From NCBI RefSeq assembly GCF_004193775.1, contig NC_041004.1:8641309-8705308 (forward strand): 64,000 bases of DNA, given 5' to 3'. This stretch comes from Glycine soja (taxonomy: Eukaryota > Streptophyta > Magnoliopsida > Fabales > Fabaceae). The position numbers were made by a program, and so were the translations under genes. Positions 8,321-64,000 of this stretch are shown piece after piece (the stretch's first letter is position 1; each line of letters begins with the position of its first letter). The notes under the pieces are model-generated. The model saw only the letters and a list, made by a program, of their open reading frames with translations. It was not told where the DNA came from and ran no database searches.

Positions 8321-8531
8321 TATCAAGAATGAAAGAAATGAATGATAGTTTTTGAATTCATTCATCAAAGTATTACAAAGGTGGTTTATTTATACAAATA
8401 TAGAGAATAACCAACTTCTAGTAACTCCTAGTAACTAACTTCAATAACTTCTAGTAACATAACTAAGTAACTATTCACCTAACTTCTAATAACTCCTAGT
8501 AACTAACTTCAACCGTCGCTTAATCGTGATA
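8321..8531 (-). repeat. 3' LTR of copia 2
   Basis: 211 bp, TATCAAGAATG...TTAATCGTGATA on the plus strand. It contains repeated CTTCTAGTAACTCCTAGTAA-like strings. Flanked on the left by TCTTT. Confidence 0.95.
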
Positions 8532-8540
8532 CCCCCCCTC
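8532..8540 (-). promoter_or_regulatory. Polypurine tract of copia 2
   Basis: The minus strand reads GAGGGGGGG directly before the 3' LTR. Confidence 0.85.
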
Positions 8541-9144
8541 AAGTTGGCGAATAGATGTTAATCATTCCCAACTTGGCAATGAATTTACCAAAAATCGGGC
8601 TTGGAAGTGCTTTTGTAAAAACATCTGCAACCTGGTGTTGGCTCTTGACATGGACAAGCTTGACTACTTTGGACTGAACATATTCTCTAATGAAATGATG
8701 ATCAATGTCTATGTGCTTGGATCGTTCATGATGAGCAGGATTTGAAGCAAGACTTATAGCAGATTTATTATCACAAAATAACATCACAGAGGGCACATAA
8801 ACTTCAAAGTGAAGAAGTAACTTGCGTAACCAATCAATTTCACTAGTAACAGAAGACAAGACACGATATTCAGCTTCAGTGGATGATTTTGAAACAGTGG
8901 GTTGTTTCTTAGAACGCCAAGAAAGAAGGCTATTTCCCAAAATGACACAAAAGCCAGAAGTGGATCTTCTGGTATCAACACAACTGGCCCAATCAGCATC
9001 CGCAAAGGCAGTGAGGTTGAGAGAGTTCTGAGCAGGGAAAAACAAACCTTGTCCAGGAGCAAATTTGATATACTGCAGAAGATGATGAACAACATGTAGG
9101 TGAGGAACTCTAGGTGCTTTCATAAATTGACTTAAGCGATTCAC
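8539..9144 (-). pseudogene. copia 2 RNase H and C-terminal pol segment
   Basis: 201 codons continuing the pol polyprotein in another frame. It shows FADADWASCVDTRRSTSGF, SSTEAEYR and LFCDNKSAISLA, the conserved blocks of the copia RNase H that removes RNA from the RNA/DNA hybrid. It overlaps the RT frame at 9141-9144 because one base is missing near 9155: the expected [11 protein letters not shown] needs one more base. Otherwise it runs intact to its natural stop at the polypurine tract. Confidence 0.92.
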
Positions 9145-10061
9145 AGCAAAGGTGATATCGGCCGTGAGATGGTCAAATAAAGCAATCTACCAATTAATCT
9201 TTTGTACATTGATGGATCAGGGAGTAAGTCTCCATCATGAAGATTGAGTTTCAGATTGGGATCCATTGGTAAATTGGAAGGTTTGCAGGCCAAGAAACCT
9301 GTATCTTCCAAAAGAGATAGATCATACTTTCGTTGAGATAGTGAGATACCTCTACTGGATTTGGCTATTTCTAAGCCAAGAAAATATTTCAAAGGGCCAA
9401 GGATCTTCAATTGAAACAAAGACTGTAATTTGGTCTGAACAGCTTGTACGGAGGCAATATTGGGCCCTGACAGGATGATGTCATCTACATATACTAGTAA
9501 AATGACTAAGGAATTGCCTGAGCCAATGGTAAAAAGGGAGTAATCATGTTTGGATTGATGGAATCCATGACTAAGAAGAGTAGTGGAGAACTTACATAAC
9601 CATTGTCTAGAGGCTTGTTTTAGGCTATATAATGATTTGTTCAATTTGCATACCAATGAAGGATTGGATGACTTGTATCCCTTGGGAAGTTCCATATAAA
9701 CTTCTTCAAACAAATCACCATTCAAAAAAGCATTGTTAACATCCAATTGTAGAAGGCACCAATTTCTAACAGCAGCAACATAAAGCAGAACTCTCACAGT
9801 GGTAAGTTTGGCTACTGGAGAGAAAGTATCAGAGAAATCGATCCCAGCTTGTTGTGTATAACCTTTGGAAACCAATCGTGCTTTGTATCTATCTACAGAG
9901 CCATCCATTTTGTATTTAACTTTATACACCCATCGACATCCTATACAATGCTTACCAGGTGGTAATGGAACAAGTGTCCAAGTGGAATTTGCTTCAAGAG
10001 CTTGGATTTCCTCATGCATTGCTTGACGCCATTCAGGATAAGGAACAACTTGATGATAAAA
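9141..10061 (-). pseudogene. copia 2 reverse transcriptase segment
   Basis: Begins in frame after the stop at 10062-10064 and contains [20 protein letters not shown], the FLNGDL block and the YVDDIILSG catalytic motif (YxDD), followed by the conserved [10 protein letters not shown]. The length and order match a complete copia RT. It ends at 9141 through the single-base frameshift into the RNase H frame. Two copies of catalytic aspartate are present, so the RT itself looks intact. Confidence 0.93.
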
Positions 10062-11378
10062 CTAAGGTTCATAGACAGAAGAGATGTGATTAATGAAAGT
10101 TCTGTAAGGAGGGCTAAGAGGCAATAGGGAACAATGATGTTGGATGGGATATGCAGCCTGAGATTGTGATATTACATAATCAGACAAGTATAAGGGATGC
10201 TTAGAGTGGCGTGTACTCCTTCTTAAGGTGACAGAGGGCAAAGTGTGAGGATGATCTAAGTCAGGGATTGAGGATGAATCAGTTGGGTCATGGTTAAAGC
10301 GATTAGTTGGTTGTGGTGATTGGCTACTAGTCTGGTTAGGGTTAGGTAAGGTATTAGTTATGGGAATGGGAATAACCAAATCAAGTAAAGGATCCGAAAT
10401 GACCTGAGGCTGTGAAATGGTTTGAAAAGGAAAAATGGATTCATGAAAGACAACATCTCTAGACACAAAAAATTTCTTAGTGTCTAGGCTATACAATTTG
10501 TATCCTTTATAACCTTGGGGATAGCCAACAAAAATGGCAGGCACTGCTCGAGGAGAAAACTTGTTCCTTGAGGATGGAAGAGTAGAAGCAAATGCTAAAC
10601 ACCCAAAACTTCTTAAGGCATGATAGTCAGGTCCCTTTTTGAACAAAATATTGTAGGGTGAGCAGTGTTGCAGTAATGGTGAAGGGGTTTTGTTGATAAG
10701 AAAACATGCAGTGGTAACACAATCACCCCAGAATGAGATAGGAACTTTAGACTGAAAAAACAAAGCTCTTGCTACATTGAGCAAATGTTGATGCTTCCTT
10801 TCCACTACTGAATTTTGTTCTGGCCTTTCAACACAGGAAAATTGATGAAGAGTGCCCATGGAAGCCAAAAACTGAGTGAGAGCAAGTTCCTTAGCATTAT
10901 CAGATCTGAGGCATTTGATAGATACACCAAACTGAGTCTGAACCATGGTGAAAAATTGTTGCACATAGATTGAAGCTTCAGATTTGTTCTTAAGCAGAAA
11001 TAGCCAAGTGAATCGTGAGCAATCATCAACCAATGTAAGGAAAAATCTCTTTCCCTCATAGGTAGGGTGAGCATAGGGACCCCATATATCACAGTGAATA
11101 AAGTCAAATGGTAATTTAGATAAATGGTTAGAGTTAGGAAAAGATAATCTTCTAAATTTAGCAAGAGGACAAACAAAACAATTAGAAGAAGAGAAATTAG
11201 GAGAAAGGTGCAAACCAATTTTATTATTCAAATGTTTGAAAACTTTGTCTGAGATATGACCAAATCTAGAATGCCAAATATGAGCATTTTTACAAGGAAT
11301 GGAATTTGGATGGGAATTGATAACAGGAAAAGTAAATTTACAATCAAGAGTGTCCTTGAGATCTAAGACATAAAGGCC
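10062..11378 (-). pseudogene. copia 2 integrase segment
   Basis: Starts just after an in-frame stop (11379-11381). The zinc-binding region shows HIWHSRFGHIS and CFVCPLAK (HHCC type). The catalytic core has the HCDIWGP aspartate, RSDNAKE aspartate and VVERKHQ glutamate, the D,D-35-E triad that joins the cDNA to the host chromosome. A C-terminal GYPQGYKGYKLY block and a Pro/Ser-rich linker follow. It ends at a second in-frame stop (10062-10064). Apart from the two stops it appears full length. Confidence 0.93.
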
Positions 11379-12806
11379 TTAGATGAGAGCCCCTCTACCA
11401 ATCCTCTTGCAAGCTTGCTTCTCCTGAATATCAAATGCATTTTGGGAAAAAGAAATGGACAAATTAGGATTGGTTAGAAGAGCACTAACTGAAATTAAAT
11501 TGAATTTGAATTTAGGAATGTAGGCAACATTATGCAAGAGTAAGGTATTGGTTAAGCAAACCGAACCAATGACAATGATAGGTATAACATCATTGTTAGG
11601 CAGAGTGACAGTTTTATCAGAAACAAGTTGGTAAGATAAAAAATGATGAAGAGAACAAGAAATATGAATGCTGGCACCAGAATCTAAAAGCCAACAATCA
11701 TGAAGAAAATTAGAAGTGGATATAGAAAGGATCATACCACTGGCAGAAGAAACACCTTGAGGAATGACAACATTGGTAGCATGACTTTCTAAAAGATTCA
11801 TCAATTGGCTATATTGTTGGGCAGTAAGTTGAAACTGGGAACCCGAGTCACCAGAGGAAGATGGTGAGTGAGACATATCAACAGATACTTGTTGAGCAAC
11901 CTTGTGTGGTGGTTCAGAAGATGAAGAATGTTTCTTGACTTCTGAGGAAAAACTAGTCCTCGGATAATTTGGAGGATAACCATGCAACTTGAAGCAACGA
12001 TCCTGAGTATGACCCAACATACCACAATGAGCACACAAGGGGCGATTCTTGGAAGATCCTTTGAAGCGATTGGTAGGATGATTGCGTGCAACAGAAGAAG
12101 GCTTCAAGGCAAAAGCATGTGAAACTTCACGAGCAGAGGTGGAAGCACCAACTTCCTTTTGCTTTTCTTCTTGAACAACTAAGGAAAAAACCTTAGTTAC
12201 TGAGGGAAAGGGATCCATGGATAAAATTTGACCTCTGATAGTAGAGAAGGATTCATTCAACCCCATCAAGAACTGCATAGCATACTCCATTTGTTCAAAA
12301 TCGCACCAAGGTTTAATTCCTCCACATGTGCAACTATGTGAGGGCTTCAGTTCTGATAATGACTCCCACAGAGAACGAAGCTTGGAGTAGAAAGAGGAAA
12401 CATACATGGAACCTTGTTGCAGAGTGATCAATTCATGCTTAAGTTGAAAAATTAAAGGACCATTTCGTTGCTCAATACGTTCTTGAAGATCATCCCAGAT
12501 TGCTTTGGCAGAAGAACAATGTAAGATACTGACTTGCATTTCTTTGGATAAAGAATTAATGAGCCAGGAAGAAACGATACTATCGTTGCGATGCCACAAA
12601 GCATGAGTGGAGTGACCTAAAGCAGGTTTAGGAATTGAACCATCAACAAACCCATATTTGTTCTTCCCATGAAGAGCCATGCACATTGCTTTCTTCCAAG
12701 AATTGTAGTTATCACCGGTAAGAGGATGAGAAACTAAGGCAATGTCAGGATGGTCGGAAGAATGAAGAATGAAGGGGTTAGAATCATCAATGGCAGCCAT
12801 GGTCAT
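11379..12806 (-). CDS. copia 2 gag-protease ORF
   Basis: 475 codons from an ATG (12804-12806) to a TAA. The N-terminal part has the UBN2-type capsid signature LTGDNYNSWKKAMCMALHGK. A CCHC zinc knuckle (CAHCGMLGHTQDRC, about residues 255-268) is for RNA binding. The aspartic protease active site is WLLDSGASIH (about residue 370). The frame continues into integrase after a single TAA codon, so gag-protease could be made but not the whole polyprotein. The start is the first ATG after the primer site and about 65 bp inside the 5' LTR. Confidence 0.93.
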   Translation of the reverse strand: MTMAAIDDSNPFILHSSDHPDIALVSHPLTGDNYNSWKKAMCMALHGKNKYGFVDGSIPKPALGHSTHALWHRNDSIVSSWLINSLSKEMQVSILHCSSAKAIWDDLQERIEQRNGPLIFQLKHELITLQQGSMYVSSFYSKLRSLWESLSELKPSHSCTCGGIKPWCDFEQMEYAMQFLMGLNESFSTIRGQILSMDPFPSVTKVFSLVVQEEKQKEVGASTSAREVSHAFALKPSSVARNHPTNRFKGSSKNRPLCAHCGMLGHTQDRCFKLHGYPPNYPRTSFSSEVKKHSSSSEPPHKVAQQVSVDMSHSPSSSGDSGSQFQLTAQQYSQLMNLLESHATNVVIPQGVSSASGMILSISTSNFLHDCWLLDSGASIHISCSLHHFLSYQLVSDKTVTLPNNDVIPIIVIGSVCLTNTLLLHNVAYIPKFKFNLISVSALLTNPNLSISFSQNAFDIQEKQACKRIGRGALI

Positions 12807-12860
12807 GAGATAAAAAAAGAAATAACTTCAATAGGAAGAAAGAAGTACGAAAGCAAAAAC

Positions 12861-12871
12861 TTCTGATACCA
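12861..12871 (-). other. Primer binding site of copia 2 (tRNA-Met type)
   Basis: The plus strand TTCTGATACCA is the reverse complement of TGGTATCAGAA and directly abuts the right LTR. This confirms that the LTR starts at TATCAAG. Confidence 0.88.
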
Positions 12872-13082
12872 TATCAAGAATGAAAGAAATGAATGATAGT
12901 TTTCAAATTCATTCATCAAAGTATTACAAAGGTGGTTTATTTATACAAATATAGAGAATAACCAACTTCTAGTAACTCCTAGTAACTAACTTCAATAACT
13001 TCTAGTAACATAACTAAGTAACTATTCACCTAACTTCTAATAACTCCTAGTAACTAACTTCGACCGTCGCTTAATCGTGATA
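12872..13082 (-). repeat. 5' LTR of copia 2
   Basis: 211 bp, identical to 8321-8531 except for about three positions (two adjacent near base 34, one near base 192). Followed by TCTTT. Confidence 0.95.
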
Positions 13083-40270: not shown

Positions 40271-40809
40271 TGAAGTTTTATTATCAGTTGTGAGATACAT
40301 CCATTAACTCATAATGATGTTGCACAGATGTTGTAGACAAATTTGCTGGGGAGGATCTGGATCCTATCAAGATATTGAAGTCACTTCCTGCAATATGAAT
40401 GAGTTGTAGCAAGTAAAAAACCAAATAAGATGTGGCAAGTAAAAGAGTGTGTTAGGCTTTTTATTCCCTTACTATTTGAAGTTAAAAAAGTGCAAAAATT
40501 GAGGAGTAAGGCTGAGTTTGTTTAAACTTATAAAAGGTAATTTAAAAATAGATGCTTTTTAAAAAAAGCGCATATTCAATAAGCATATAATATTTCCTTA
40601 TCAAAATAAGCCAATTCTTTTTATTAAGCAAAAATTATTTAGACAAACAAACGAAAAAAATAGAAAACTGCTTATTTTATTAAAATAAGGATTTTTTTAA
40701 CAATCTAACAAATAAGTTTAGAGAATCTGGCCCTAACTTTAGGACTAAAATCACTTTCTTATATAAATTTCAGGGACTAAACCACACAATATAAAAGTTT
40801 GGAGACTAA
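40271..40809. other. Intergenic, no gene seen
   Basis: AT-rich sequence containing only short ORFs. No element boundary identified. Confidence 0.5.
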
Positions 40810-49477: not shown

Positions 49478-49607
49478 CTAAGCGCAAGCCTCTCGCTAAG
49501 CGCATCTTTGGTCATGCGCTAAGCTGAAAGTATCTAGCGCTTAGTGCTTAACCCTTGCATCTCATGTTGATTTAGTCCGCTAAGTTGGCCAAGGGTGAGC
49601 TAAGCCC
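49478..49607 (+). repeat. Start of GCTAAGCG array in element C
   Basis: Several GCTAAGCG motifs as in element A (CGCTAAGCGCAAGCC and others), cut by the insertion at 49608. Confidence 0.75.
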
Positions 49608-49659
49608 TGTGGAAGCAAAGCTTCATGATGGTGTTTTGATGATAAGAATGATAACAAAG

Positions 49660-49860
49660 GTGATGAACAAAAAGCTCAAAGATCAAAGAACAACTCAAGT
49701 GAATCAAAGAGCATCTCAAGTGAATCAAGAACAAGTCAAGAGTTCAAGAATCAAGAAGAATTCAAGACTCAAGAAGAAAGTCTAGAATCAAGAATCAAGA
49801 TTCAAGATTAAGATCAAGATTCAAGAATGAAGAAAAGACTCAATCAAGATAAGTATTAAA
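49660..49860. repeat. TCAAGA-rich low-complexity stretch in LTR E
   Basis: Many variants of TCAAGA, GAATCAAGA and ATTCAAGA in tandem, about 200 bp. Purine-rich on the plus strand. Confidence 0.8.
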
Positions 49861-49930
49861 AAGTTTTTTCAAAACTTTGAATAGCACATGAGTTTTTGAC
49901 AAAACCTTTACCGAAGAGTTTTTACTCTCT

Positions 49931-50175
49931 GGTAATCAATTACCATATTGTTGTAATCGATTACCAATAGCAAAATAAGTTTGAAAAAGTTTTCAAACTG
50001 AATTTACAACGTTCCAAAAATTTTCAAAAGGCTGTAGTCGATTACAATGTTTTGGTAATTGATTACCAGTGCCCTTGAACATTGAAATTCAAATTTAAAT
50101 GTGAAGAGTCACATCCTTTCACTCAAAAGCTTTGTGTAATCGATTACACTTATTTGGTAATCGATTACCAGTGAC
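49931..50175. repeat. Palindromic TAATCGATTA motifs in LTR E
   Basis: Copies include GTGTAATCGATTACAC (50134-50149) and TGGTAATCGATTACCA (50155-50170), both perfect palindromes with different outer bases, plus diverged copies near 49932 and 49955. The same motif recurs in the solo LTR at 56790-57648. Confidence 0.85.
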
Positions 50176-50297
50176 TGTTTTTGAAAAATCTAAAGATGTA
50201 ACTCTTCAAAAAGGTTTTGACTTTTTCAAATGGGTTTTAAGTTTTTCTAAAAGTTATAACTCTTCTGAATGGCCTTCTTGACCAGACATGAAGAGTC

Positions 50298-50305
50298 TAT
50301 AAAAG
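50298..50305 (+). promoter_or_regulatory. Putative TATA box of LTR E
   Basis: TATAAAAG within GAGTCTATAAAAGCAAGG, located between the palindromic motifs and the stem-loop array. Transcripts starting about 30 bases downstream would include all the stem-loops. Confidence 0.6.
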
Positions 50306-50450
50306 CAAGGCTTTGTTTTGCATTTTCAAACAATCTTTTTAATAAATCATTCCAATCTTGAACACTTTTCCAATTCATTCAAACAATCCTTTACAAGCCT
50401 TGAATCTCTTTGAATTTATTCTTCTTCTTCTTTGTACCAAAAGCTTTCTA

Positions 50451-50971
50451 AAGTTTTCTGGTTTTCAAAAACTTGAAAACTTGTGCTATTCATCTTTTCA
50501 TTCTCTTCTCCCTTTGTCAAAAAGAATTCGCCAAGGACTAACCGCCTGAATTCTTTTTGTGTCTCTCTTCTCTCTTTTCCAAAAGAAGGAAGGACTAACC
50601 GCCTGAATTCTTTTGTGTCTCCCTTCTCCCTTGTCAAAGAATTCAACACGACACAGCTTGAGAATTCTTTTGATTCTTCCCATTCCCTAATACAAAAGCG
50701 TTCAAAGGTTTAATCGCCTGAGAATTCTTTTGTATCCCCATTCACAAAGTATCAAAGGTTTAACAGCCTAAGATCTTTGTCTCAACACATTGGAGGGTAC
50801 ATCCTTTGTGGTACAAGTAGAGGGTACATCTACTTGGGTTTGACTGAGAACAAGAGAGGGTACATCTCTTGTGGATCAGTTCTAGTGGAGGGTACATCCA
50901 CTAGGGTTTCAAAGAGAACAAGGGAGGGTACATCCCTTGTGGATCTTTGCTTGTAAAAGGATTTTTACAAG
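50451..50971 (+). repeat. Array of about twelve consecutive stem-loops in LTR E
   Basis: Adjacent hairpins with perfect 6-12-bp arms, except one with a 2-bp mismatch. Arms: 50451-50458/50475-50482, 50518-50529/50548-50559, 50580-50587/50608-50615, 50636-50644/50662-50670, 50690-50698/50727-50735, 50744-50749/50775-50780, 50786-50793/50803-50810 (mismatched), 50814-50820/50830-50836, 50850-50856/50866-50872, 50882-50888/50898-50904, 50918-50924/50934-50940 and 50950-50958/50963-50971. Loops of four of the hairpins from 50518 to 50780 share AAGG..TAA.CGCCT. The five hairpins from 50786 to 50940 all have the loop AGGGTACAT while their stems differ. Lies downstream of the TATA box, so it would be in the transcript. 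Confidence 0.85.
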
Positions 50972-51228
50972 GTTGAAAGAAATCTCAAGGACCGCAGGTC
51001 GCTTGGGGACTGGAGGTAGGCACGGGTTTGTGCCGAACCAGTATAAAAACTCTTGTGTGTTTGTTTCCTTCTTCCCTACTCTTTTACTTTCCGCTGTGCA
51101 TTTTAATTTCTGCTTTTACTTTCTATTAAGTTTCTCTTCTACTCCATATTCTCTTAACAACATAAGTAAAAGCCTTAGAAGAGTAATTTTTTTAATTAGT
51201 AAAGGTTTAGGAATAATTAATTCAACCC

Positions 51229-53060
51229 TGTCATACCCTAATTTCGTCCGGGGATTATTACTTGATAATATGCAACCTTTGATCGGCCGCTTTGAGATAC
51301 TTGGCATCCTTTGTTTCACAATATGTGAAGTCCCGAGACATGCCGGAAATCAAAAGGAAGCAGGCTTACGCGATCCGTGAAATTCCGTAATGTGGCAGAA
51401 ACCAAAAGGAGGTGTTGTTACGCAATCCGTGAGTTTCCGTAACTTCTTCGAAAGCTAAAAAAGAGTAAATACATGATCCGTAAGGATCCGTAACCTTACG
51501 GAAAGAAAATAAGTATCGTTACGAAATTCGTAAAGTTTCGTAACGTTACGGAAAAATAATCACCAAAAATGGTAAAGGGGGGTGAACTTATCAAGATAGG
51601 GGTGTAAATAGCAATTCAAATCTAGGCCTTTCCGGAACATTTTGGAAGTTGGGTTGCTTAAGGAGGAAGCAACTGGGCGGCAAGCTCCTCCACGTTTTTG
51701 AAAAATGGTTTCCGGGGCTTCCATAATACTTCCGTAAAATTTCCGAAAACCTTGGGTAAGCATATTCCACTTAACATTGGTGAAAGGGAAGAGAAAAAAG
51801 ATGAAAATCAAATTCAAAAACACTTCCGAAAGGCTTCCGTAACTTTTCCGTAAAATACGAAAAGGGGGGTGAACTTAGTAATTTGGGTGCGCTTAGAAAT
51901 CTTCTTCATTAAGTCTCTGGGCGACAAGCTCCTCCCTTTTTTTCTATAAATAGGGGAGGGGGAGCTGTTTCAAAAGGTTCAAGACCCCTTTGGCTATGCA
52001 TTTCGGCTATTTTGGGCAAAAAACACGTTTTCGTGAAGAAAAATCGAGTCGAAGTGCTTCCGTAACGCTTCCGTAAGCGATTCTGTGGAAATTCTTCATC
52101 GTTCTTCGTCGTTCTTCACCGTTCTTCATCCGTTCTTCATTCGTTCTTCATTCTTCAACGGGTAAGTTTTTGAATCCGAGACTTTGAATTCATTTCTTGT
52201 TTTGTGTACTTTCACTTTAATTTCGTTTACTTTCAGTTTTCTTTTCTTCCGTTTTTAACGTGCTTTAACCGTTTATTTAAGCCGTTTTCTCGCCTAATAA
52301 ATGATAAAATGAATTTCAACCGATCATTTGTGTTGTAATCTCGTTTAATCACTGTTAAAACAAAATCTAACCGATCGTTCACGTTGTAACCACGGTTAAA
52401 CCAAAAAGAGGTAAAATAATAATATAATAATCAAAAAATATCTTTTAGTAAAATAAACCAAAAAAAATCAATCGGACGTTTTCTCTTTGGAATTTCTCAT
52501 TCTTAATTGAATTGACTAATAACTAAAGTGAAACTAAGGCTAAAATCAATTCGCCAAGTCAAGCTCGTCCACAAAAATATCACTAAAAAAAGGGATTTGA
52601 AAGTTTATTATCTTAGTCTTTCTTACCAAGTTAATGGATCATTTTTAAGGTCCAACACCTTTAAATGGTCACCTTTCAAGTAAAAAGAAATCGTGTGATT
52701 CACCCTTAAGAAAGAACTATGTAGGTCTGATTTCCTCTTCGATGGAGGGTACGTAGGAGCAAGAGCCCCGCTTTTGTCGACCTCAAAAAATAAAAAGAAC
52801 TAAAAGTTAAGATAACACAATTTCCACAATTCTGAAAAATAGGTTGTTGTCCTTTGAGACAAACGTAAGAGGTGCTAATACCTTCCTCAAACGTAAATAC
52901 AACTCCCGAACTTAGAATTTTCATTTCGACCGATTTCCTTCGGTTTTTCCGACGTTTCCCACAAATAAACGTTGGTGGCGACTCCGCGCATCTTTCCTCC
53001 TTTGGAAAGCGCACCCGTGAGCCTCGCCTTCGCTCGCCCGCAAAAGGGCATGTTGCAACA
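51229..53060 (+). repeat. 5' LTR of element F
   Basis: From TGTCATACCCTAATTTCG to ATGTTGCAACA. It contains many TTCCGTAAC/GTTACGGAA variants at 51370-51860, often as palindromes (TCCGTAACCTTACGGA, CGTAACGTTACG). A TATAAATA box is at 51945-51952. A repeated GTTCTTC stretch lies at 52090-52160, and TACGTAGGAGCAAGAGCC is near 52750. Confidence 0.88.
51945..51952 (+). promoter_or_regulatory. TATA box of element F LTR
   Basis: TATAAATA within TTTCTATAAATAGGGGAGGG, a strong match to the plant TATA consensus about 715 bp into the LTR. Confidence 0.7.
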
Positions 53061-56424: not shown

Positions 56425-56789
56425 ATCCTGACATTGACAAGAGATGCCACACATGGGGCAATTTTGAAAGTTGTTGTTAGATGTCTCTAATGACTCATCA
56501 GGATTTTCAAGTGCAAGTCATTGGTCAGTTTGCTCAAGCAACCTGTGCTCCTGAGTTTGGACTTCCAAGACCGTTCAATCATAGATTACTCGTCTTGCAC
56601 GTTGGTGGGGGTGCCGTAAAACAACGAGTAAAGTTCAAAACAAATAAGTTCCAAAATAAAAAGAGGGTTCAAAAAGAAAAAGAAAAAAAAGCATTTGATT
56701 GACTGTGTTTTCAAGACGTTCATGTGACCTCATTTTATCATTCCAGAAAGTTTGTCTTTTTAGAGAGAAGTGAGTTATCAAGAATAGGA
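56425..56789 (+). other. Element F sequence after gag, no gene seen
   Basis: No protease or RT motif found where the pol gene would be expected. The short ORFs have no homology I recognise. Confidence 0.5.
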
Positions 56790-57648
56790 TGTTGGACAAA
56801 TGGCCTCAGTTACCTTAAGAAAAAAAAGGGGGTTGAATTAAGATACAAAGATTATTCCCCAATTAAACTTTCACTCTCTCTTTACGGATTAACAACGCAC
56901 ACAGGGACAACCCTTCCCTTGTGTTCAAGAATCCCCTACAACAACAGACCCACGGTCTCTTAATCCCTTTTCAGAAATAAGAAGAAGAGAAGAAGAAATC
57001 TCTCTTAAAAGAGATGGATTGTAAAATGAAGATCAATCAAAATTCCTTATTAAATATGCAAGTGGTTGACCAAGGAATCTTTTTGAGGGGATAAGACATT
57101 TCAGTTCAGAAAAACTCTCTTAATCTTTTGAGAGGATGAAACTTTTTGGGCAATAAAAGCTCTCTTTAAATTCGTGTTTCCAAGTCACATATAAATAGAC
57201 CTTTGATGGCCATTCATAAACCATTTGAACAAATGTGACTCTTGGAAATTATATTCTGAAAATCCCCTCTGGTAATCAATTACAAGACTTGTGTAATCGA
57301 TTACAGGTTTTAAAATTTTGAATTAAAACGTTCAATAAACTGCTGGTAATCAATTACCGTCCATGTGTAATCAATTACACGTTATAAATTTTGAATTCAA
57401 ATTTCTAGTGACTGTTATAAACATTTTTCAGCTGCTGGTAATCGATTACCAGAGAGCAAATCTCAATTTGAAATGATAGAATTCTTTGGTCAAACCTTTT
57501 GTTTTTTCAATTTGGAAACTTCTTCCTAAAGATTCTAGAAATCAACTTGATCATATATCTTGATTTTCTTGGATTCTTGTCTTGAATAAAACTTAGAAGC
57601 ACTTGATCCTTTAGCATCATCAAGACATCAAAACATCTTGCTTCTACA
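56790..57648 (-). mobile_element. Solo LTR of a TAATCGATTA-family retrotransposon
   Basis: 859 bp in reverse orientation. The minus strand starts TGTAGAAGCAAGATG and ends TTTGTCCAACA. TAGGA is duplicated at 56785-56789 and 57649-57653. It contains GGTAATCGATTACC-type palindromes, including the 18-bp CTGGTAATCGATTACCAG (57435-57452), and AACCCCCTTTTTTT near its end as expected for this family. Related to LTR E but with only one clear hairpin of the E type (about 56895-56921). Confidence 0.92.
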
Positions 57649-63330: not shown

Positions 63331-63461
63331 AGTATATTGTTTTTCTAAGATATGGTGCTTTCGCGAATGATTTATTTTTCTTTGCAAAAAAAAAAAAAAC
63401 ATGTTTGCCTTTTTTAAGTGGAAAAAACCCGGCGGACCATTTGGTCCTGCCTACCCTTTTT

Positions 63462-64000
63462 GGAGCCATGCGTAGTCATTGCTTAGTGCAATTCTCCATC
63501 CTCGCCTTTTTTTCGGAGCCCCATGAATTGCGTTTTCGTTCATGCATCCTCCACCCACGAGTTTGGAGCCATGCGTAGTGATTGCTTAGTGCAATTCTCC
63601 ATCCTCGCCTTTTTTCGGAGCCCCATGAATTGTGTTTTCGTTCAAGCATCTTCCACCCACGAGTTTGGAGCCATGCGTAGTGATTGCTTAGTGCAATTCT
63701 CCATCCTCGCCTTTTTTCGGAGCCCCATGAATTGCGTTTTCGTTCATGCATCCTCCACCCAGGAGTTTGGAGCCATGCGTAGTGATTGCTTAGTGCAATT
63801 CTCCATCCTCGCCTTTTTTTCGGAGCCCCATGAATTGCGTTTTCGTTCATGCATCCTCCACCCACGAGTTTGGAGCCATGCATAGTGATTGCTTAGTGCA
63901 ATTCTCCATCCTCGCCTTTTTTTCGGAGCCCCATGAACTACGTTTTCGTTCATGCATCCTCCACCCACGAGTTTGGAGCCATGCGTAGTGATTGCTTAGT
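63462..64000 (+). repeat. 102/103-bp satellite-like tandem array, continues beyond the window
   Basis: Units start with GGAGCCATGCGTAGTGATTG at 63462, 63565, 63667, 63769, 63872 and 63975, with spacings 103, 102, 102, 103 and 103. The difference is one T in the CTTTTTTTCGG run. Copies are nearly identical. The array is cut by the window end. Confidence 0.95.

Follow-up and report, generated by a model that had tools for sequence, protein, structure and literature searches.

A constant-loop hairpin array in the presumed leader of a Sirevirus-type LTR retrotransposon family of Glycine soja, with stem pairing that seems to be kept in transposing lineages

Introduction

Between the cap and gag, retroviral leaders that function in packaging and dimerisation carry hairpins whose exposed loops are conserved. 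In plant LTR retrotransposons, to our knowledge, cis-acting RNA signals have hardly been mapped. Among the counterparts in plants are the repeated motifs of Sirevirus LTRs (Bousios et al. 2010, PMC2829016), which lie upstream of the TATA box, consist of one palindrome repeated per element, and are given for 13 elements of the set, SIRE1 not included. Palindromes of maize Sireviruses are attributed to Bousios et al. 2016 in PMC10760457. In satellite tobacco necrosis virus, dispersed hairpins with a common loop motif have been proposed to bind the coat protein, although the same paper states that its data argue against a packaging role of the motif in vivo (PMC6475782). In barley, a copia form without Gag synthesis, one of the pair BARE1/BARE2, depends on the Gag of the other (PMC3735527), and a 2008 paper on the soybean Rps1-k locus lists anonymous tandem repeats, with no structural reading in its available part (PMC2330051).

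Here, we describe an array of predicted hairpins inside one LTR of the window, by which we mean the whole 64,000-nucleotide stretch of Glycine soja DNA analysed. As in the Sirevirus motifs (PMC2829016), many short palindromic units lie within an LTR, which here has a U3 cluster of its own as well; unlike those motifs, the array lies downstream of the TATA box, and its arms vary by unit while the loop is constant. The array resembles retroviral leaders in having predicted hairpins with constant loops between the presumed start and gag, and differs from them in that there are about a dozen hairpins, five with one loop, and in that packaging is here only a proposed role. With satellite tobacco necrosis virus it has in common several hairpins with one loop motif, the type of virus being different. 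A likeness to BARE1/BARE2 lies in a related copy (L016) without the gag region that another copy (L031) has, whereas the available text of PMC3735527 contains no hairpin array. Two of the Rps1-k repeat units printed in PMC2330051 match C and B units of the array in reverse complement, by eye.

No description of such an array was present among the literature matches listed for hairpins or palindromes in Sirevirus or other LTR leaders, for packaging signals, or for the motif, and the matches for soybean autonomous and non-autonomous pairs included nothing on the present family. The available part of a paper on minisatellites in soybean retrotransposons mentions neither a hairpin nor SIRE1 (PMC3305785). 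The reading that we favour, tentatively and as close to but short of probable, is that the array forms an RNA structure within the 5' leader, with C and D arms kept by selection, that would act as a multi-site packaging or dimerisation signal.

Results

Layout of the array

Downstream of the TATA box, twelve hairpins can be distinguished (A0, B1 to B5, C1 to C5 and D; Table 1), in agreement with a preliminary description of this DNA that had reported about a dozen consecutive stem-loops in one LTR. That description had also given the preceding units longer arms, four of them with AAGG-type loops, and the last hairpin 9-bp arms with a 4-base loop, and both readings hold for B1 to B5, with four loops of the AAGGnnTAAnnGCCT kind, and for D. 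Its four perfect 7-bp units with a common nine-base loop are indeed perfect and alike in their loop, but the arms of these units (C2 to C5) are 8 bp long around the 7-nt loop GGGTACA, with the terminal A and T of AGGGTACAT paired. The outer 6-bp stems of C3 and C5 have a sequence of their own in each unit and are followed by the same GA/GGA internal loop before the inner stem. The 68-nt units at 50811-50878 and 50879-50946 differ at 11 positions. Each of the 11 is paired in one unit or in both (hypergeometric P = 0.005), 10 of them in both, and the remaining unpaired positions are identical. In the single-sequence MFE structure of the window copy, B2 and B3 are not formed as drawn. In the B loops (50533-50779), CTAAC or a similar form is present, with pyrimidine-rich spacers after it, an arrangement that may resemble a branch point with its tract.

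Table 1. Predicted features of the array-bearing LTR, in window positions
Feature	Position	Strand	Remark
LTR, Sirevirus-type copia element (5' or solo)	49608..~51223	+	3' end apparently cut by another insertion
U3 palindrome cluster, variants of GGTAATCGATTACC / TGTAATCGATTACA	49931..50173	no strand	
TATA box TATAAAAG	50298..50305	+	read in sequence
Presumed transcribed leader without ATG	50326..51223	+	start assumed ~30 nt after TATA box
Hairpin A0	50461..50480	+	
Hairpins B1 to B5	50520..50780	+	longer arms; four loops of AAGGnnTAAnnGCCT kind
Hairpin C1	50786..50810	+	loop GGGTACA; 2x2 U.U mismatch
Hairpin C2	50814..50836	+	8 bp
Hairpin C3	50842..50881	+	8-bp inner stem and 6-bp outer stem
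Hairpin C4	50882..50904	+	8 bp; second pair T-A or A-T by subfamily
Hairpin C5	50910..50949	+	8-bp inner stem and 6-bp outer stem
Terminal hairpin D	50950..50971	+	9 bp here, 8 bp in other subfamilies; loop GGAT

Identity of the element

The LTR is classed as Sirevirus-type Ty1/copia by the PPT, PBS and domain features of PMC2829016. Similarity to several other copies runs over 49608-51228, and in a related copy the LTR start TGTGGAAGC comes after a terminal PPT AGGGGGAG followed by AT. From 51224 onward, sequence beginning TGTCATACCC cuts the LTR, apparently as a nested insertion. Several identical PPTs before the 3' LTR, a Sirevirus feature, are present in related copies: among 30 loci examined, in which a flank counts as element only where the LTR is a 3' LTR, three AGGGGGAG PPTs lie upstream of the LTR in L020, L027, L028, L032, L033 and L034, one lies there in L012, and none was found upstream of the LTR in the remaining loci, L032 to L034 being copies of one duplicated region. 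These three loci lie on contig C6 and match each other completely or almost completely along 3.56 kb; the duplication is a recent one. Positions 633-644 of L033 read AGGGGGAG-AT-TG, and an inverted repeat, TCATCATCA / TGATGA, can be seen by eye around the junction, which is another Sirevirus feature. The PBS motif TGGTATCAGAGC after the LTR, which we take to be a further Sirevirus feature, is exact in L016, L029 and L031 (3/30 loci) and altered in L011, L015, L032, L033 and L034, with neither an exact nor an altered form in the other loci of the 30. Copia-type gag-pre-integrase and integrase, and a gag with a CCHC zinc knuckle, are likewise Sirevirus features, and they are found in L016, which has copia-type Pol domains, and in L031, which has the gag with the CCHC knuckle. 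The palindromes in U3 have a core AATCGATT rather than the CGG-CCG of the Sirevirus motif upstream of the TATA box; in PMC2829016, this type of core is that of the exception Tnd-1 in Table 3. Within the U3 cluster, three palindrome pairs of the form GTAATCGATTAC recur at a spacing of 102 nt. Across the span 49600-51300, Rfam gave four matches up to E 1, each far below the gathering score and none in the array.

Other repeats are present in the window. A copia element on the minus strand at 8408-13061, with gag, integrase and RVT_2 ORFs, has on either side, at 8408 and 12959, an array of 24-nt repeats, the consensus being the same in both, and a tandem array of a 103-bp unit occupies 63459-64000, with 5.3 copies in the window and reaching its end. 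A further LTR, at 56780-57600, is in reverse orientation and Sirevirus-like by eye. The preliminary description had called it a related solo LTR with one clear equivalent of the array hairpins. One hairpin is present, so that this part of the claim is fair (at ~56.8-57.6 kb, stem ACACAAGGGA/TCCCTGTGT with one bulge, loop AGGGTTG), and U3 palindromes are in common with the array LTR, but the LTR belongs to a different family.

Copies and sampling

The loop core GAGGGTACATC occurs 29,095 times (14,603+14,492) in the 1.01-Gb genome, compared with 725 (358+367) for a reversed control. Copies came from two sources, a listing on C1 and the best matches to the window, and the first alignment comprised 60 rows, the window and 59 loci, after exclusion of repeats of one place, of L009 (the window itself) and of L064 (no match); L032, L033 and L034 form three rows in the 60-row analyses and are counted once in later ones. 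The sample was enlarged by 40 copies chosen by an intact C4 (20 per state), and L032, L034, L064 and L102 were dropped, giving 97 rows. All copies in the 60-row alignment carry five C units, in part because the copies were found through that motif. Many of the sampled copies are close relatives, and most fall in few subfamilies within each of which the stems are nearly alike.

An ATG-free presumed leader

The presumed leader of the window copy, 898 nt long, contains no ATG, compared with 7.2 expected, 0/500 shuffles as low, and 15 on the other strand. There is likewise no ATG in the 931 nt of L016 up to the PBS, while L029, L031 and L005 have one each and L001 has two (L008, in which the TATA match is absent, is left out of this count). 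Across 50690-50990 in the 60 rows, one ATG column is common to at least three copies, sitting in the C3 loop of L004, L042, L044 and L053, and another 17 occur rarely; GCT and GCA, each with a single shared column, are no commoner than ATG on this measure. The gag ORF of L031, in which Retrotran_gag_2 (3.6e-27) and zf-CCHC (3.8e-6) are recognised, begins at the first ATG past the PBS. L016 passes directly from the PBS to Pol, without the gag region present in L031, and L029 looks alike by reading. As some LTR pairs are, in addition, only ~5.3 kb apart, a gag-less partner form seems to exist.

The main rival to our reading is that the hairpins serve translation, with an AUG-poor structured leader pacing, shunting or recruiting ribosomes to the gag start. 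The lack of ATG over the leader of the window copy, the opening of gag at the first ATG after the PBS in L031 and the pyrimidine-rich spacers between the B units all speak for such a role. Mere scanning, however, needs neither constant loops nor second-tier stems, and we consider this explanation unlikely.

Pairing on tip and shared branches

When the 3' letters were shuffled among copies, the observed share of paired cells and the observed number of both-side changes were never reached (0/500 each; 60 rows), while the number of pair types was not above that of the shuffles (361/500 reach it for C+D; 60 rows). As relatedness alone can inflate both the paired-cell share and the both-side changes, branches were compared instead, with tip branches taken as mostly post-insertion decay. 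In the 60 rows, pair-breaking changes in the stems of C1 to C5 and D numbered 0 on internal branches and 59 on tips, whereas unpaired sites of the same stretch gave 20 or 27 internal and 85 or 78 tip changes on two trees (P = 9e-5 and 3e-6). The result stands when duplicates (58 rows) or the search motif are removed, and when 31 rows comprising the window and the C1-listing copies are used (P = 1e-6 to 3e-5). With a tree built from a separate upstream region, the internal/tip counts were 0/58 for breaks and 25/99 for unpaired sites (P = 4e-5), and a tree-free count of variants common to at least three copies gave 2/49 for pair-breaking and 25/63 for unpaired-site variants (P = 5e-6).

The 97-row result is weaker than that of the first sample and has the same direction. 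With C4 left out, three trees gave 2, 5 and 1 internal breaks against 114 to 119 on tips, the clades with internal breaks comprising 2 or 3 copies in every case but one, which has 6, and unpaired sites gave 22-27 internal against 144-171 tip changes (P = 1e-4 to 2e-3 over the three trees). Pair-keeping against pair-breaking changes alone, in C and D without C4, gave P = 0.0076, 0.079 and 0.13 on the three trees. For B4 and B5 together, compared with unpaired sites, P was 1.0 and 0.02 in the 60 rows and 0.028, 0.013 and 0.26 in the 97 rows, under a pairing model taken from the window copy, which some subfamilies may not follow; these upstream B hairpins thus appear much less constrained, with little or weak constraint. 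As breaks in C and D are common on tips and nearly absent on branches common to several copies, the pairing of C and D seems to be kept by selection in transposing lineages.

These counts bear on the possibility that few founder lineages, together with sequence constraint, account for the pattern, the pairing being inherited from old palindromes and not maintained. The small number of subfamilies with stems hardly different within them and the pair types not above shuffles are as expected from such inheritance. Stem sites, however, break freely on tips and almost never on shared branches, unlike unpaired sites, and the subfamily changes in C4 and D affect both arms, so that we hold this explanation to be improbable.

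Compensatory states and persistent mismatches

At the C4 pair 50883/50903, 60 of the 97 copies have T-A, 36 have A-T and one has T.G; among the 58 copies not chosen by C4, the states are T-A in 40/58, A-T in 17/58 and T.G in one. Genome-wide, the perfect form with loop GSGTACA occurs 2,868 times as T-A (1,434+1,434) and 1,863 times as A-T (912+951), while the mixed form with T in both arms, one of the two mixed states, occurs 28 times (13+15). The arms of D, by exact pattern, are 9+9 in 45/97 copies and 8+8 in 26/97, with no mixed form among these 71. Of the 26 copies not cleanly readable, 11 have 22 nt (the 9+9 length) and 12 have 20 nt (the 8+8 length), among the latter L089, which is not D sequence; the others are L047 (21 nt, possibly mixed), L040 (cut by the locus end) and L070 (not D sequence). 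The B4 pair 50691/50734 is T-A in 55 copies, A-T in 30 and other in 12 (97 copies), and the B5 pair 50751/50774 is A-T in 49, T-A in 17 and T.T in 27 of the 97, so that conservation of B5 is not strict. There are few independent compensatory events, namely C4, D, one B4 pair and the differences between paralogous units. Non-pairs persist as well: TT opposite TT in C1 (U.U/U.U) is found in 93/97 copies, the other 4 being gapped at these positions, and 91/97 copies retain the GA/GGA internal loop of C3 and likewise 91/97 that of C5.

The preliminary description had offered two explanations for arms that change together, selection for the fold or a copying mechanism that regenerates one arm from the other. 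Independent mutation of the arms, which it had named as a refuting observation, does occur in single copies, where 59/82 tip changes in the C and D stems break a pair, but hardly on shared branches. Selection for the fold is upheld for the C hairpins and D by the branch tests and by the C4 and D states, and hardly or weakly for B4 and B5. Copying, in which template switching within a hairpin during reverse transcription or replication would regenerate arms with no selection on the fold, could account for the paired length change of D and the double change of C4 with almost no intermediates. An arm-rewriting mechanism should, however, erase mismatches, and those of C1, C3 and C5 persist; on tips, in addition, double paired changes number only 2 against 59 single breaks. 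Copying is thus disfavoured and quite improbable, though a variant with repair confined to reverse transcription keeps a slim chance, whereas selection on a specific fold would explain kept pairs and kept non-pairs alike.

Hairpin excess, folding energy and strand

Counted as perfect stems of at least 7 bp with loops of 3-15 nt, hairpins in 50451-50971 number 6, whereas 300 dinucleotide shuffles averaged 0.68 and never exceeded 4. Among 245 segments of 521 bases over the 64 kb, the top count was 6, at 50701, followed by 5 at 50441 and 5 at 40561. The MFE z-scores, sense / antisense, were -6.8 / -8.1 for the C+D part and -4.6 / -2.0 for the B part, and about -9 on both strands for the U3 stretch 49850-50296. 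As the antisense of C+D folds at least as well as the sense, folding energy alone picks no strand for C+D, and a strand test by G.U against A.C gave no strand information. All five AGGGTACAT in the window are on one strand. The position downstream of the TATA box, as the preliminary description had it, stands; its placing of the array in the RNA is probable from that position and from the lack of ATG on the same strand. Together with the one-strand AGGGTACAT, these favour a function in sense RNA, with a presumed start site.

A reading at the DNA level, with the hairpins as dyad sites for regulators in a downstream version of the Sirevirus repeated motifs, can point to the palindromes in the U3 of the same LTR, to those for which Sirevirus LTRs are known (PMC2829016), and to the good folding of C+D on both strands. 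We regard it as very unlikely, since the array lies downstream of the TATA box with all five AGGGTACAT on one strand and since an asymmetric loop is constant while the arms vary. Chance is an unlikely source of the hairpin cluster.

Discussion

In our preferred reading, an RNA structure serving as a packaging or dimerisation signal, the array would belong to the 5' leader that a Sirevirus-type retrotransposon has in its RNA, genomic as well as messenger. Selection would keep the C and D arms complementary in lineages still transposing, and inserted copies would then decay freely, two steps to which the comparison of copies lends support. That constant, exposed loops recur on stems of varying sequence suggests that the loop is what is recognised, and as the Gag of the element has a zinc knuckle, packaging is the first role that comes to mind. 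The five GGGUACA loops and those of the B units, all exposed, would most likely be recognition sites for the element's own Gag with its CCHC zinc knuckle; alternatively, two RNAs may contact each other loop to loop through the self-complementary GUAC of the loop. In either case the array would act at multiple sites, in packaging or in dimerisation, and the leader may be kept nearly AUG-free so that ribosomes scan to the gag start just after the PBS.

A more specific proposal, which we consider doubtful, is that the array represents a novel cis-element, in which one constant loop with a self-complementary core would be presented in multivalent form, for Gag binding or RNA loop-loop contacts, and the arms would diversify in step so that the units stay independent in folding and reverse transcription.

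A family of thousands of copies that records compensatory changes amounts to a natural mutational scan, in which single copies show the effect of mutation and shared branches show what transposition tolerates. In this way, the leader structures needed by a plant retrotransposon become directly testable from genome sequence, and in the present family the folded shape of the array seems to matter for the copying of the element.
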